Source: a virus
Direction: 5' to 3' (one strand)
IMG/VR virus record: IMGVR_UViG_3300020450_000114
Coordinates: 1 to 21,492 of that record
DNA length: 21,492 nt
Shown in pieces: positions 1,769-21,488 of this stretch (position 1 is its first letter; each line of letters begins with the position of its first letter). A program made the translations under genes and the position numbers. The notes under the pieces were generated by a model that had not been told where the DNA came from, made no database searches, and saw only the letters and a list, made by a program, of their open reading frames with translations.

Positions 1769-1954
1769 TTAGTAATTTATTACGATTAAATTTTGTAGTT
1801 TTCTGATTACACCGTCTAGGTCAAGATCATAATAGTAGTCATAGGCATCTTTTTTTAACTGTTTAGCATAATCTAATTTAGCAAAGATATCTTTACATTC
1901 TTTGAATTCTTTGAAAACTTGATATTTTGTTTTATATTGAAAATTATTTGTCAT
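1769..1954 (-). CDS. Small hypothetical protein (61 aa), first gene of the leftward operon
   Basis: A 61-aa protein, basic and aromatic in its middle part (many Lys, Tyr, Phe, Asp), predicted largely helical. The frame is open upstream to 2056, which would give 95 aa, but I chose ATG 1954. That ATG has AAAAGGA 6 nt upstream, and the N-terminal extension is unlike the rest, basic, and would overlap the proposed promoter. Residues 48-51 are DLDG within DYYYDLDLDGVIRKL, which might tempt one to see a calcium loop, but the loop is incomplete. The gene lies immediately downstream of the divergent control region, so it is probably the first gene of the leftward transcript. Family and function are not recognised. 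Confidence 0.6.
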   Translation of the reverse strand: MTNNFQYKTKYQVFKEFKECKDIFAKLDYAKQLKKDAYDYYYDLDLDGVIRKLQNLIVINY

Positions 1955-1983: not shown

Positions 1984-2012
1984 ATCTTAACATATTTTGA
2001 GGTGTAAAACAA
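1984..2012 (-). promoter_or_regulatory. Putative extended -10 sigma70-like promoter for the leftward operon
   Basis: On the minus strand TTGTTT (2012-2007) and TAAGAT (1989-1984) are 17 bp apart, and the -10 is preceded by TGT, the extended -10 element. Transcription would start near 1976, about 20 nt before the chosen ATG 1954 and leaving room for the AAAAGGA ribosome site. The boxes match only 3 of 6 and 4 of 6 consensus bases, so this is a candidate. It is unlike the TATAAATA boxes on the other strand, which would fit early or middle use by host sigma70. Confidence 0.4.
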
Positions 2013-2070
2013 GCACTTTTTCCCCTTTTTAGGGATTTTCTTTCGTTTAGAATCAATAGGTTAGAAGAAA

Positions 2071-2155
2071 AGTGAAAAAAACTTGAAAAATCGCAGAAAA
2101 CTGCGAAAAATGACTAAAAATGACGAAAAACTGCGAAAAAAATGACTAAAAAAAG
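2071..2155. repeat. Phased A-tract array (about eight A-tracts, 10-bp period)
   Basis: Successive blocks of about 10 bp each end in a run of four to seven A: GTGAAAAAAA, CTTGAAAAA, TCGCAGAAAA, CTGCGAAAAA, TGACTAAAAA, TGACGAAAAA, CTGCGAAAAAAA, TGACTAAAAAAA. The words CTGCGAAAAA and TGACTAAAAA each occur twice. A-tracts in phase with the helix bend DNA, so this stretch should be strongly curved. It fills the gap between the leftward and rightward gene blocks and ends directly before a late box. Roles as an upstream activating element, protein-binding array or origin-like element are inference. Confidence 0.7.
2086..2106 (-). terminator. Perfect hairpin with T-tract, terminator-like on the minus strand
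   Basis: TCGCAG (2091-2096) and CTGCGA (2101-2106) form a perfect 6-bp stem with a 4-nt loop. Read leftward, the stem is followed by TTTTT, the form of a short intrinsic terminator. It would stop leftward transcripts entering from the rightward block before they reach the leftward operon. The stem is short, and it lies within the A-tract array, so it may instead be a palindromic protein-binding site. Confidence 0.35.
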
Positions 2156-2158
2156 TCT

Positions 2159-2166
2159 TATAAATA
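2159..2166 (+). promoter_or_regulatory. T4-like late promoter box TATAAATA
   Basis: An exact TATAAATA, the -10 box recognised by the T4 late sigma factor gp55, follows the phased A-tracts directly. With T4 spacing (+1 about six bases after the box) transcription would begin at 2172, the A of an in-frame ATG. It is the first rightward late box and would serve the small basic genes, the PAAR gene and probably the wedge genes. Confidence 0.6.
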
Positions 2167-2171
2167 GTAAA

Positions 2172-2342
2172 ATGAGGGATTTTTGTTATGACGGCGTGAT
2201 TCTTTACGAATCAAACAACTTTGTATGGGAATTAATCTTAGAGAGACACGAATTTATCGTGGAAATCTTCAATCCGAGTATTTCCAGACTAAAACATAAA
2301 AATGTCGTTATGCAAGGAGTGACCTTCGGTACAAATTATTAA
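2172..2342 (+). CDS. Small hypothetical protein (56 aa), first rightward gene
   Basis: The frame is open from ATG 2142 (66 aa), but that start lies inside the A-tract array and upstream of the late box, so a transcript from that box could not include it. I chose ATG 2172, giving 56 aa, exactly at the predicted transcription start. Neither start has a Shine-Dalgarno. The protein alternates hydrophobic and charged residues (DGVILYESNNFVWELILERH), which suggests a small beta-rich domain, and ends VVMQGVTFGTNY. No known family is recognised. It is followed after 14 nt by the 35-aa lysine-rich gene. The coding call rests on the open frame, the promoter and the operon position, and is moderate. Confidence 0.5.
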   Translation: MRDFCYDGVILYESNNFVWELILERHEFIVEIFNPSISRLKHKNVVMQGVTFGTNY

Positions 2343-5212: not shown

Positions 5213-7774
5213 ATGGAAAACTATTTTACTTTAAAAGAAAAAATATCTTCACTAGTAGGACAACAATCACCTGAGTTTGTTCAATCTGATCATCCTGGTT
5301 TCGTAGATTTTCTTAAATCATATTTTATTTTTATGGAATCTGCTGAGATGCAGGTTACAAATATTTCTGAACAAGATGAGATATTATTAGAAACAGAAAA
5401 TCCAGACATAAATTTTAAAATATTAAATGAAGATGGCACAGCACCCTTACTAGAAAGTAATAGTTTTGCCTCTGCATTTACTTTGGGTGAAGTTATTACA
5501 GGATCAGTTACAGGTGCTCAGTCAACTATTCTAAGTCCTGATATTACTAATTCAAAACTATTCATATCTGCAAACTCAAGATTTAAAACAGGCGAAACAA
5601 TAACAGGCGCTACTTCAGGTGCAACAGCAACTGTTAGTAAATATAGAGGTAATCCTGTACAGAATATTCAACAATTTTTAAATTTAGCAGATGCTGATAA
5701 AACTATATTTGATTTCTTATCTGATATGAGAAAATCTTTTATGACAGGCATAACAGAAAATTTACACCCAGATGTTGATAAAAGAAAAACTTTAAAAAAT
5801 ATAAAAGGTTTATATAGAGCAAAAGGTACTGCAAAGGCAAATAAACTATTCTTTCAGATGTTATTTAATGAGACACCTGATATCTATTATCCTAATAGAG
5901 ACTTACTAAAACCATCAATCGGTAAATTCTCAAGAAAAAGTATTCTAAGAGTCACTCAAAACTCAGGTAGTGTATTAAATCTTACAGGTAAAACAATAAC
6001 AATGGTCAGCGGTAATAATACTGCAAGTGCCTTAGTAGAGAATGTTACCTCTTTTGCTATAGGATCTACAGTTCTGTTTGAATTAGAATTAAATACAGAA
6101 ACAATAAAAGGAACATTTTTAGATGGTGAAGTAATCACAGGTGTTGATAATACAGATAATACATTAGTTGCAAAAGGTACAATTAAAACTATTTTAAATG
6201 ATATATCAATAACAAATGACGGTCACTTATATACTACTGCTAGTTCTGTTAGTCTAAGTGGTGGTGGAGGATCTGGTGCAACTGCATTTATTGAAGAGAT
6301 CGGTTCTGGCGGTGTCGAAGAAATTATTGTTGTAGATGGCGGATCAAACTATGCTGTTGGTGACACACTAACATTTAATTTTACTAACTCTGATGGTGCA
6401 GGTGCTGAGGCGGTCGTTGCTGTTGTAAACGGTGGTATTGCAGGTGAAACTGGCACTTCGGCAGATCATATTATATTAGAAGATGGCACACAAGCAGGTG
6501 ATCCTTATACAGGTAATAAAATAGTTCAAGAGGCAGGAACATCAGCAACAAAAGATATTACTGATGTAAGAGTCACTAGAAGCGGTCATGGCATGACCTC
6601 TTTACCTACAGCAACAGTTTCAAGTACACTTGGCACAGGTGCTGTTGTTAGAACATACGGTAATGAAATAGGTAGAATTAAAAAGTTTTCAATATTAGAT
6701 CAAGGCATTAATTTTACAGGCACACCTACGGTTGTATTAGAAGGTAATGCTGTTTATAAATCAAGTTCAGGTACTATATCAGCAGATGAAACATTCACTG
6801 GTAGTGGTAGTACATCAGGTACTTTAAAATCTATTGATACAAGTACAAACAAAATTTCATTTACAACTGCAACTGGTGCTGTTGTCGCTGGTCAAACTTT
6901 AACATTTTCTGGTTCAGGAACAGTAGTAATTGAAAAGGTAGATCAGGCAACTGCTACTGCTTCAGTAGCAACAAAAGTATTAACAAGTGGTGCATATACA
7001 ACTCAAGACGGATTTATTTCAGAGAAAGATAAAAGAATTCAAGATAGTGTTTATTATCAAGATTATTCTTATGTTGTAAAAGTTGGTGAAAGTATTACAA
7101 AGTGGAGAGACTATATTAAAAAGGCAATACACCCATCAGGATTTAATGTATCAGGTCTAGTTAGAATTCAGACAAGAGTTAGTGGTGAAATTTCTGTACC
7201 TGTTCAAGGTATCGTAACTGGCATTGAAGATACACCATTATTCTCAACATACAAATTCTTATTTGCAACTGTATTTGGTAGAAGAGCAGGAACAGATACA
7301 GATGGCACTACTTTAAGAGCAAGTGCTAAAGTAGGTAATGACAATAGAGATACACATACCGCAAGTACAAGAGATGTTACAGTAAATAGAAAAGTAACTG
7401 TAAAACTATTTGGTGACTCTGAAGATTTAGGTTTCAAAATAAGAGGTCAACTTAGAAATCACGGATTTGCATATGCAGGACCTAGAACGAAAAATGCATT
7501 TCAGTTTGGGATATTCTCAGGACCATACATAAACGGTACAGGTGTGCCTGTTTCTCAATGGGGCAACTATCATTTATCAGGAATGTTAGATAGCACATTA
7601 AATGGTACTGTATTAACACTAGGTGAATTAAATGATCCTGTGAATAATAGTAGAAATCTAAAGACAAATATTGCATTCCCAAGTGAGTTTTCTAGAACAG
7701 TAGGGGATTTTTCTTCAACTACTAGGACTTTTGATAGCACTAATACAAATTTTGATGAGGACGATCTAACTTAA
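5213..7774 (+). CDS. Baseplate wedge/virion structural protein in the gp7 position
   Basis: An 853-aa structural protein directly after gp6, where T4 has gp7 (1032 aa). Residues 1-45 hold FVDFLKSYFIFMES. Two short beta modules (LGEVITGSVTGAQ and TGETITGATSGATATV) follow at about residues 85-145. A helical block (FDFLSDMRKSF, LYRAKGTAKANKLFFQMLF, PDIYYPNRDLLKPS) lies at about 160-235. Residues 330-600 are Gly/Thr-rich beta repeats with GGGGSGATAFIEE, GGSNYAVGDTLTF and similar turns. A conserved C-terminal block begins at about 615 with YYQDYSYVVKV and KAIHPSGFNVSGLV. I believe this is the marine T4-like counterpart of gp7, from position and layout rather than clear sequence match to T4 gp7. 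There is no Shine-Dalgarno and a 1-nt gap to gp6. Confidence 0.7.
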   Translation: MENYFTLKEKISSLVGQQSPEFVQSDHPGFVDFLKSYFIFMESAEMQVTNISEQDEILLETENPDINFKILNEDGTAPLLESNSFASAFTLGEVITGSVTGAQSTILSPDITNSKLFISANSRFKTGETITGATSGATATVSKYRGNPVQNIQQFLNLADADKTIFDFLSDMRKSFMTGITENLHPDVDKRKTLKNIKGLYRAKGTAKANKLFFQMLFNETPDIYYPNRDLLKPSIGKFSRKSILRVTQNSGSVLNLTGKTITMVSGNNTASALVENVTSFAIGSTVLFELELNTETIKGTFLDGEVITGVDNTDNTLVAKGTIKTILNDISITNDGHLYTTASSVSLSGGGGSGATAFIEEIGSGGVEEIIVVDGGSNYAVGDTLTFNFTNSDGAGAEAVVAVVNGGIAGETGTSADHIILEDGTQAGDPYTGNKIVQEAGTSATKDITDVRVTRSGHGMTSLPTATVSSTLGTGAVVRTYGNEIGRIKKFSILDQGINFTGTPTVVLEGNAVYKSSSGTISADETFTGSGSTSGTLKSIDTSTNKISFTTATGAVVAGQTLTFSGSGTVVIEKVDQATATASVATKVLTSGAYTTQDGFISEKDKRIQDSVYYQDYSYVVKVGESITKWRDYIKKAIHPSGFNVSGLVRIQTRVSGEISVPVQGIVTGIEDTPLFSTYKFLFATVFGRRAGTDTDGTTLRASAKVGNDNRDTHTASTRDVTVNRKVTVKLFGDSEDLGFKIRGQLRNHGFAYAGPRTKNAFQFGIFSGPYINGTGVPVSQWGNYHLSGMLDSTLNGTVLTLGELNDPVNNSRNLKTNIAFPSEFSRTVGDFSSTTRTFDSTNTNFDEDDLT

Positions 7775-7777
7775 TCG

Positions 7778-7785
7778 TATAAATA
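7778..7785 (+). promoter_or_regulatory. T4-like late promoter box TATAAATA
   Basis: An exact TATAAATA in the 17-nt gap between the 853-aa and 196-aa genes, six bases before ATG 7792. T4-like initiation would fall at 7791, one base before the ATG, with no Shine-Dalgarno in the gap. Confidence 0.6.
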
Positions 7786-7791
7786 GTTCAT

Positions 7792-8382
7792 ATGGCAAAA
7801 CAATCACTCAATTTAGGATCAAGTGCAAACGATGGAGGGGGTACTACTCTTCGTGCTGGGGGCGATTTAATTAATGATAACTTTAATGAGTTATATACTG
7901 CATTGGGTGATGGGTCAGCACTACAAATTTCAATATCAGGATCACCAAGCACTGGTGATGTTCTTACTTGGAACGGTTCTGCCTTTGCCTCTGCGACACC
8001 TAGTACACTTGCAAACATTGTAGAAGATACGACACCTCAACTTGGTGGTAATTTAGATGTCAACGCAAAACAAATTGTATCAGCAAGTAATAATAATATC
8101 GTTATCACACCTAATGGGTCAGGTTCAGTTGTATTAGATGGTCAGTCTTGGCCGCAAGCAGATGGTTCTGCGAATCAAGTTTTAAAAACAGACGGTTCAG
8201 GACAGTTATCTTATAGTAATCTTGAAAGTGTTGCTGCTACTCACATTCAACTTCCTGTTTATGCAACTACAAGTGCTAGAGATGCAGCACTAAGTTCACC
8301 TGCTGCAGGTATGATGATTTATTTAACCGCAACAAATAAGGCACAAGTGTATAATGGCACTTCTTGGACAGATTTACACTAG
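7792..8382 (+). CDS. Small fibre-like virion structural protein
   Basis: A 196-aa protein of the type often encoded among wedge genes in marine T4-like phages. The N-terminus has GGDLINDNFNELYTALGDG, a pattern seen at the start of many phage fibre or fibre-adaptor proteins. The middle has TTPQLGGNLDVNAKQI and ITPNGSGSVVLDG, a beta-strand module shared by marine phage tail fibres. The C-terminal 50 residues (YATTSARDAAL, GMMIYLTATNKAQVYNGTSW) form a common small terminal domain of phage structural proteins. It probably sits at the tail periphery or baseplate edge. There is no Shine-Dalgarno; its start is set by the late box 6 nt upstream. The structural role is fairly sure, the exact place in the virion is not. 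Confidence 0.65.
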   Translation: MAKQSLNLGSSANDGGGTTLRAGGDLINDNFNELYTALGDGSALQISISGSPSTGDVLTWNGSAFASATPSTLANIVEDTTPQLGGNLDVNAKQIVSASNNNIVITPNGSGSVVLDGQSWPQADGSANQVLKTDGSGQLSYSNLESVAATHIQLPVYATTSARDAALSSPAAGMMIYLTATNKAQVYNGTSWTDLH

Positions 8383-20548: not shown

Positions 20549-20556
20549 TATAAATA
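20549..20556 (+). promoter_or_regulatory. T4-like late promoter box TATAAATA
   Basis: TATAAATACTATT here closely follows the extended T4 late consensus, and the ATG (20562) comes five bases after the box. AAGGAG lies at 20542-20547, upstream of the box and 14 nt from the ATG, so it would not be on the late transcript and is too far to serve as a good ribosome site. Confidence 0.65.
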
Positions 20557-20561
20557 CTATT

Positions 20562-21488
20562 ATGACCGTTCGATTTTCTTTATATAATGATGGTTCTAAT
20601 AACCTGCAGGAATTTACTGCAGCGCAGAATACAACTAATCAATCACAAGCAATTTATCAATACAGTACTGACCCTTCAGTTACTTTGACTGTTGGTTCTG
20701 GTTCTAGTATTGGTACTAGAGCAGATACAAGATTACAAGCGGGTGCTGGTACAACCCATCCTTCATCTTTTCAAACACCTGCGAGTACAAGCACGATAAC
20801 CGTAAACTACACAAACATAGGACAAAATGTTGCTACAGTAACAGATCCTACAGATACGAATAATGTTGCATATCCTGTTTACTATGATGGCACAGATGTT
20901 GTATCAATGACTAAAGCAGATTTTCAAGATACATTTATTAAACCTGCAATAGAAACAATGGTACAAACAACTTCAACTGGTGCAGATCAAGCAGGAACAT
21001 TTACGATTGGTACTTCAACAAGTTTAGCAAATCATACTAATATCTCTTCAACTGCTGTATTTACAGATACTAGAGCAAATGCTGGTGCTTATTCTTCATC
21101 AAGTTTATTTGAAACTCAAGATCAACCTACGACTATCACAAACTACTTTTTACATAGAAGAAATGGCGTTGATAATATTGGTTCTTGTACTGTACCTATG
21201 TTTGCTGATACAAGTGGTAATTTAGAAACTTATACTAATGCTGAGTGGGGAACATTATTGAAAAATGAAATTAGAAGAGTTGCGGCAAGTCTTAGTGGGC
21301 ATCAAATAAGATATTCCTCTAGCACAACTTCTACATTTGCAAGAGGCACTGGTATGGCAGATACAAAATTGAATGGTCAAACACTAGCACAACAACAGAT
21401 AAATACAGACGATTACAGATCACAATTTTTTCCGTCTGGTGCAGCAACAACTATAAATACTTATTATTTAAGACCGTTCTTATCGTAA
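20562..21488 (+). CDS. Virion structural protein, unknown domain (308 aa)
   Basis: A 308-aa protein with no shaft repeats. The first 90 residues are Ser/Thr-rich (TVRFSLYNDGSNNLQEFTA, VTLTVGSGSSIGTRADTRL). The middle and end have more aromatic and charged residues: YPVYYDGTDVVSMTKADFQD, TITNYFLHRRNGVD, EWGTLLKNEIRRVAASL and DYRSQFFPSGAATTINTYYL. This organisation, with a Thr-rich beta start and a helix-bearing C-terminal half, is known in structural proteins of marine T4-like phages, but I know no assigned function. It could be a fibre tip, a fibre connector, or a neck or whisker-type component. The start codon sits at the predicted late transcription start. The last bases of the window (AAGGA) look like the ribosome site of a further rightward gene. 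Confidence 0.65.
   Translation: MTVRFSLYNDGSNNLQEFTAAQNTTNQSQAIYQYSTDPSVTLTVGSGSSIGTRADTRLQAGAGTTHPSSFQTPASTSTITVNYTNIGQNVATVTDPTDTNNVAYPVYYDGTDVVSMTKADFQDTFIKPAIETMVQTTSTGADQAGTFTIGTSTSLANHTNISSTAVFTDTRANAGAYSSSSLFETQDQPTTITNYFLHRRNGVDNIGSCTVPMFADTSGNLETYTNAEWGTLLKNEIRRVAASLSGHQIRYSSSTTSTFARGTGMADTKLNGQTLAQQQINTDDYRSQFFPSGAATTINTYYLRPFLS
21452..21459 (+). promoter_or_regulatory. Possible late box for the gene to the right of the window
   Basis: TATAAATAC lies inside the last codons of the 308-aa gene. Initiation would fall near 21465, before the AAGGA at the window end. It fits a late promoter for the next gene, but exact matches inside genes also occur by chance in DNA this AT-rich. Confidence 0.35.

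Follow-up and report, generated by a model that had tools for sequence, protein, structure and literature searches.

Which of two divergent transcription units is served by an array of phased A-tracts lying between them, and in what way? The question is raised by a 21,492-base IMG/VR virus record, which was analysed over its full length and is called the window here. Leftward genes for a 2OG-Fe oxygenase and small proteins face away from rightward genes for the PAAR, gp25 and gp6 baseplate proteins, and we assign the window to a marine T4-like phage because its best annotated matches were HTVC008M, Mosig and Melnitz (73-76% identity over 9-16% of a 2-kb query, in the baseplate genes). An earlier note on this DNA had placed the array in the divergent control region, and it is indeed flanked by the leftward small genes and the rightward genes. 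The features of the junction are collected in Table 1. An ATG at 2142 was considered as the start of the rightward gene and rejected, the start conserved in relatives being that at 2172.

Table 1. Elements of the junction, with their positions in the window
Feature	Position	Strand	Description
First leftward small gene	1769-1954	-	61 aa, no known family; AAGGA ribosome site at 1960-1964
Predicted leftward sigma70-type early promoter	1984-2012	-	TTGTTT at 2012-2007, 17 bp, TAAGAT at 1989-1984
Three T-runs (A-runs when read leftward)	2017-2039		9-9.5 bp apart, directly upstream of the -35 box
IHF-consensus site AATCAATAGGTTA (consensus WATCAANNNNTTR)	2051-2063	+	Window and 15 other loci, several of them near-identical
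Phased A-tract array	2068-2154		Predicted curved; nine A-runs of 4-7, about 10 bp apart: 2068-2071, 2075-2081, 2086-2090, 2097-2100, 2106-2110, 2116-2120, 2126-2130, 2136-2142, 2148-2154
Inverted repeat TCGCAG-TTTT-CTGCGA, then T5	2091-2106	-	Terminator-like hairpin or two half-sites
Second CTGCGAAAAA, distal CGCAG copy	2131-2140	+	About three helical turns from the first copy
T4-type late box TATAAATA	2159-2166	+	For the rightward genes; TCTTATAAATAGT conserved
First rightward late gene	2172-2342	+	56 aa, no known family; ATG 5 nt past the late box

Phasing and predicted curvature of the array

The array, which reads as T-tracts on the leftward strand, had been described as eight A-runs recurring at about one helical turn. 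The periodicity held, phasing as good being reached in 4 of 5000 random placements of the same runs, and the count was corrected to nine when all runs of at least four were included; centre-to-centre spacings are 8.5, 10, 10.5, 9.5, 10, 10, 11 and 12 bp. Two decamers each occur twice, as previously reported, CTGCGAAAAA at 2101-2110 and 2131-2140 and TGACTAAAAA at 2111-2120 and 2143-2152. Four bases (GTCT), and not three, separate the last A-run from TATAAATA.

Curvature was predicted with wedge models, the check that the earlier note had proposed for its claim of an intrinsic bend. The array was the strongest predicted bend in the window (153 degrees per 60 bp, against a window mean of 28.6 with a standard deviation of 15.9), and none of 1000 dinucleotide shuffles of the stretch equalled it. 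A simple AA-wedge model gave 152 degrees, again unequalled in 1000 shuffles, and both models ranked the array first, so that the excess curvature looked for was found. Since the bend was calculated as a small-angle vector sum with approximate wedge parameters, the ranks carry more weight than the absolute degrees. The largest predicted bend in the whole 147-kb genome of HTVC008M was 101 degrees. The array region was also the top curvature site in three related contigs (G001, over the first 20,000 of its 21,883 bases, G008 and G009) and tied for the top in two others (G002 and G006); G016, a contig without the conserved core described below, differed from these five in its curvature ranking. 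The array is confirmed to have the characteristics of intrinsically curved DNA, namely helix-phased A-tracts and a predicted curvature above that of composition-matched controls. A count of curvature peaks in divergent gaps (20 of 82 gap-bearing loci) was discarded because simple ORF calls misplace the gaps.

A putative control module kept in fixed order

Relatives were fetched with the gp25 and PAAR proteins, giving 150 loci in which the gp25 set comprised the best 80 of 367; contigs beyond these 80 were reached only through DNA patterns. Homologues of both neighbouring genes were found in 11 of the 150 protein-fetched loci, corresponding to 10 distinct contigs, some near-identical, and the core (CGCAGAAAACTGCGAAAAA) lay between them in every case. 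A search at the same junction in relatives, suggested in the earlier note, was therefore positive in 10 of 10 contigs with both neighbours. In all ten, a homologue of the 61-aa leftward gene lay left of the module, not always as the first gene, and the 56-aa rightward gene had a homologue of 52-64% identity. Between the closest relatives, the non-coding module is more strictly conserved than the adjoining genes: the 96 bp at 2045-2140 are 97% identical to L129 and 96% identical to L135, against 62-86% for the DNA of left1, right1, right3 and gp6. Identity of the module drops to 68-74% in the comparison with L126, L136, L137 and L205, to which a spacing change of 21 bp contributes, and several neighbour genes are then more alike than the module (left1, 92% in L126; right3, 77-84% across this set).

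The exact core was present in 25 loci, ten of which lacked the junction and were excluded (L280, L281, L283, L285, L288, L292, L294, L296, L299 and L300); 16 further loci were found by pattern, and L302 and L308 were excluded from them as unrelated. Identity of the core among exact-core loci, and of the IHF site among loci found by an IHF pattern, is true by selection and was not used as evidence. Loci from a scan of viral contigs for AAAAATGACTAAAAA, which gave at least 120 matches, were left out of all counts. The core was absent, at up to 3 mismatches, from the whole HTVC008M genome and from the Mosig junction; the leftward genes of both phages have promoter-like sequence in front of them (in Mosig as judged by eye). 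The array is reduced in L289, L293, L301 and L307, where the module has a predicted bend of 69-86 degrees. At this junction we also noticed by eye, in more distant phages, a small rightward gene for a lipoprotein-like protein, the start of which overlaps the leftward promoter region; these are Mosig (MT647606.1, locus L274 2970-3173), L143, L154, L158 and L183.

Read on the leftward strand, the junction consists of the T-run array, a CGCAG element, the IHF-consensus site, A/T-runs, TTGnnn-N17-TAnnAT, a ribosome site and ATG. The A-tracts, IHF-consensus site, A/T-runs and predicted promoter are kept in fixed order across at least four architectures. All 16 loci selected by protein or core alone, window included, contained WATCAANNNNTTR, with variation in the NNNN letters, and six more loci found with an IHF-containing pattern were left out of this count. 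Loci of the L278 type keep the consensus although their flanks have diverged. As the window as a whole contains three matches to the consensus, a number expected by chance (3.1), the proposal of an IHF site rests on position and conservation. The T-runs at 2017-2039 rank second or third among the curvature peaks of the window, according to the model and window size used.

The promoter of the window is weak, with 7 of 12 consensus bases (3/6 in TTGTTT, 4/6 in TAAGAT), and several relatives carry a perfect TATAAT. The pattern CTTGnnn-N17-TAnnAT, an extended form of TTGnnn-N17-TAnnAT, was found in 22 of 22 loci, none of which had been selected on it. A generic sigma70 scan requiring at least 9 of 12 bases did not return the 1984-2012 promoter among its sites; between 1700 and 2500 it gave eight other promoter-like sites, against 3.9 expected. 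The module does not extend to the group as a whole, since the core is missing from HTVC008M and 2 of 35 predicted early promoters there have an IHF consensus upstream (0.68 expected). By eye, L301, L303, L305, L306 and L307 have a second early-type promoter, which immediately precedes the CGCAG element, and both promoters have recurring ACTTTCGGGC motifs nearby. In the integrase-bearing contig L296, AATCAATAACTTA, the 13-mer of the L277 type, was found near the integrase gene, a setting in which IHF sites would be expected; at 5525-5613 this 13-mer, the core and a tRNA-like half sequence (by eye) lie within about 90 bp in an attachment-site-like arrangement, and ARAGORN found no complete tRNA in this region.

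The distances between elements vary in a regular manner. From the IHF site to the -35 box they are 31, 51, 61 or 62 bp, from the CGCAG element to the IHF site 21, 30, 31, 42 or 43 bp, and from the CGCAG element to the -35 box 61, 62, 82, 83, 93 or 94 bp in total; in window-type loci the late box lies 82, 91, 93, 103 or 113 bp from the IHF site. Random spacings were as coherent as the first two distances jointly in 174 of 20,000 sets, as IHF to -35 alone in 482, as the late-box distance in 71, and as all three distances in none (clustered values). The CGCAG-IHF spacing is unremarkable by itself (2040 of 20,000), and the CGCAG to -35 totals were equalled in 26 sets taken as six values or 590 taken as three clusters. 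The support for element spacings that change from one lineage to another in steps of about a full helical turn is moderate, and not more, because the lineages are few, the clustering was manual and the period was the best one between 10 and 11. Slippage within a 10-bp repeat could produce the 10-bp indels in lineages that are few and related.

The late box and the leftward promoter

In the window, TATAAATA occurs seven times, always on the plus strand (at least seven in 6 of 100 shuffles), and in five cases an ORF starts within 45 nt of the box, after 5, 5, 6, 16 and 5 nt. The boxes placed 5 nt (once 6 nt) before an ATG are those at 2159-2172, 2894-2907, 7778-7792 and 20549-20562. HTVC008M has TATAAATA boxes exactly 5 nt before ATG at 6267, 7549, 18914, 31119 and 49747, and all five are annotated gene starts. 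Matches to the box followed within 0-22 nt by ATG, with the backward control in brackets, numbered 14 (3) in HTVC008M, 20 (6) in Mosig, 10 (5) in Melnitz and 13 (15) in T4; the gap was exactly 5 nt in 5 of 14, 2 of 20, 3 of 10 and 1 of 13, respectively. For Melnitz, 15 late promoters had already been predicted (PMC9004378). According to a review, T4-type late transcription starts about one turn downstream of the box (PMC2988020); with a gap of 5 nt, transcription would therefore begin on the A of the ATG or beside it. Leaderless mRNAs are accordingly predicted for several late genes, among them the gene that starts at 2172 next to the array.

The earlier note suggested that the array could act as an upstream element for late RNA polymerase; at the 2159 promoter it might aid either the polymerase or the sliding clamp. 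The array ends 4 bp short of the box, the box of window-type loci is phased with the IHF site over 82-113 bp, and the box at 7778 also follows a fairly curved stretch (7696-7778, four T-runs, 83 degrees per 60 bp, 99.4th percentile of the window). Such a phase would, however, persist from slippage of the array in 10-bp units alone, and for five of the six other late boxes in the window, the preceding 100 bp contain no more than one A-run and one T-run. A review describes T4 late promoters as lacking an upstream or -35 element, the clamp pushing the alpha C-terminal domains aside (PMC2988020).

Ten loci in which the two gene sets have been pulled apart bear directly on this suggestion. In L278, L287, L298, L289, L293, L301, L303, L305, L306 and L307, a leftward gene and a nuclease gene separate the module from the baseplate genes (the nuclease is an SNase by Pfam for the L287 copy, and the other copies are assigned by likeness). 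The IHF-consensus site, the CGCAG element and the predicted promoter remain in all ten at the leftward operon, whose first gene varies, and a second gap contains the late box, at a distance of 373 to 1146 bp from the IHF site. A-runs of at least four were absent from the 100 bp preceding this box in all ten loci, and a single T-run was present there in L293 only; the predicted bend was 39-52 degrees. It is mainly because of this comparison that we do not accept an upstream element for late RNA polymerase, which we regard as improbable. The late box to the right of the array is best explained as a separate promoter that abuts the module in this lineage, and the module, with its predicted bend, seems to be part of the control DNA of the leftward early operon, not of the adjoining late genes. 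In the second gap of L278, L289 and L293, the late box stands back to back, by eye, with a leftward TTTACA-N17-TATAAT-like promoter, within about 50 bp and without an array.

A probable role at the leftward early operon, alternatives and known systems

Our preferred reading, which we hold with a confidence slightly above even, a little reduced by the weak promoter match, is that the array is the distal part of a control module upstream of the predicted leftward early operon, in which curvature and an IHF/HU-type bend would assist a sigma70 promoter. On infection, host sigma70 RNA polymerase would read the leftward promoter and a host protein of the IHF or HU family would bend the site at 2051-2063; this bend, together with the curved array, could swing the upstream DNA back onto the alpha C-terminal domains of the polymerase. 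Alternatively, the bend may bring a protein bound to the CGCAG elements to the promoter. Either would result in more early transcription of the leftward small genes, and the module probably helps host RNA polymerase to start early transcription. The predicted IHF site upstream of a sigma70-type promoter, conserved in 16 of 16 loci, is the arrangement expected of an IHF-assisted phage early promoter. The idea of a binding array for a nucleoid protein, raised in the earlier note, survives in a narrower form, that of a predicted IHF-type site beside the array.

Possible bending proteins were sought in SAR11 (Pelagibacteraceae), which may not be the host of this phage. Two to three IHF/HU-family genes were present in all eight genomes tested, which were taken from 80 listed Pelagibacteraceae loci. 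A copy scoring higher as hip than as himA (up to 86 bits) was found in seven of the eight, the exception being G022; copies scoring higher as himA reach 82 bits, and those near 65 bits may be HU. None of the matches in the eight genomes exceeded the curated himA or hip cut-offs (near 120), which are strict, as only one of 14 control genomes passed that for himA and two passed that for hip.

The array region could also have functions unrelated to promoter activation. The minus-strand hairpin at 2106-2091 is terminator-like (-8.7 kcal/mol, z -4.3; 0.1 expected in region shuffles), and a leftward gene ends just before it in L278, L289 and L293, so that the module might mainly be a terminator or insulator that blocks leftward read-through, with the other A-runs as by-products. 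The palindrome is nevertheless lost in six loci (L301, L303, L305, L306, L307 and L304), in which the left half CGCAGTTTT is kept and the combination of hairpin and U-run is not conserved. Moreover, a likely leftward gene directly to the right of the hairpin was not found in the window, and a terminator would leave unexplained both the phased A-runs and the 96-97% identity to L129 and L135 over 96 bp; we find this account very improbable. Long phased A-tracts are typical targets of xenogeneic silencers and other nucleoid proteins, and the array is the most curved stretch of the window; it could be a target of such a host protein, which would keep the early operon off or pack the DNA. A silenced early promoter would, however, be of little use to a lytic phage, and in the comparison with L129 and L135 the base sequence itself is conserved, beyond A/T content. 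We consider a silencer target very improbable.

An origin of replication equivalent to T4 oriE, the main rival of the preferred reading, is unlikely as well. The early leftward promoter would make the primer RNA, and the iteron-like repeats, the IHF-type bend and A/T-rich DNA would help duplex opening; origins commonly combine an IHF site with repeats and A/T-rich stretches. The annotated T4 oriE (79355) lies 1.4 kb upstream of gene 5.4; its primer is leftward, as are repEA and repEB there. The predicted leftward promoter of the window is found some 0.6 kb before the PAAR (5.4-like) gene, in the same general place and direction, and precedes the 5.4-like, gp25 and gp6 genes; gene 5 is outside the window, its order being taken from HTVC008M, in which a pair of short leftward genes is retained between gene 5 and gp25/gp6. 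A review describes oriE as apparently dependent on an early promoter (PMC3016281). Against an origin, the proteins encoded at 1769-1954 and 1517-1756 gave no BLASTP alignment to T4 RepEA or RepEB, and the two nearest leftward proteins had no useful family match. HTVC008M has an early promoter at the junction but the core nowhere, and no origin signal was seen in its GC skew, which climbs through the junction and does not switch at 30 kb; the skew dips near 15-20 kb and 55-60 kb, in stretches of leftward genes. The contigs are fragments, from which origin activity is not readable. A combined switch-and-origin element, in which the IHF-bent, curved iteron array would both drive the early leftward transcript and prime replication with it, is a speculative extension that we think distinctly unlikely; if true, it would be a functional equivalent of oriE with a different DNA-bending design in marine T4-like phages.

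Returning to the control module of an early operon, pelagimyophages infect some of the most abundant bacteria and their transcription control is poorly known; the locus provides a concrete early promoter candidate. The preferred reading predicts that T4-like phages of streamlined hosts make use of a host DNA-bending protein. In titles and abstracts, a scope that does not prove absence, we found no pelagiphage or methylophage early promoter based on IHF or curvature. One genomic study reports that middle and late promoters could not be found in them with the methods used for this purpose (PMC7029224).

Four known systems resemble parts of the junction. With the T4-type late promoter it shares TATAAATA at 2159-2166, all seven boxes of the window being on the late-gene strand, whereas the array has no part in such a promoter and the 5-nt gap to the ATG found here is seen in 1 of 13 T4 matches. 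In the T4 oriE region, too, an early promoter and small genes, all leftward, precede 5.4 and gene 6; T4 repEA and repEB, however, are antisense inside gene 5, and the two window proteins do not align with their products. Promoters activated by curved DNA or UP elements have phased A/T-runs upstream of the -35 box, as seen here on the leftward strand. Most of the present array lies beyond -90, outside the usual UP element, with the IHF-type site in between. The Pe promoter of phage Mu, a temperate phage whose IHF site lies within the operator/enhancer region, has in common with this locus an IHF site upstream of an early promoter. The site predicted here from sequence is centred about 80 bp before the predicted start, and it is found in a T4-like phage, accompanied by CGCAG repeats and a long array of phased A-tracts.
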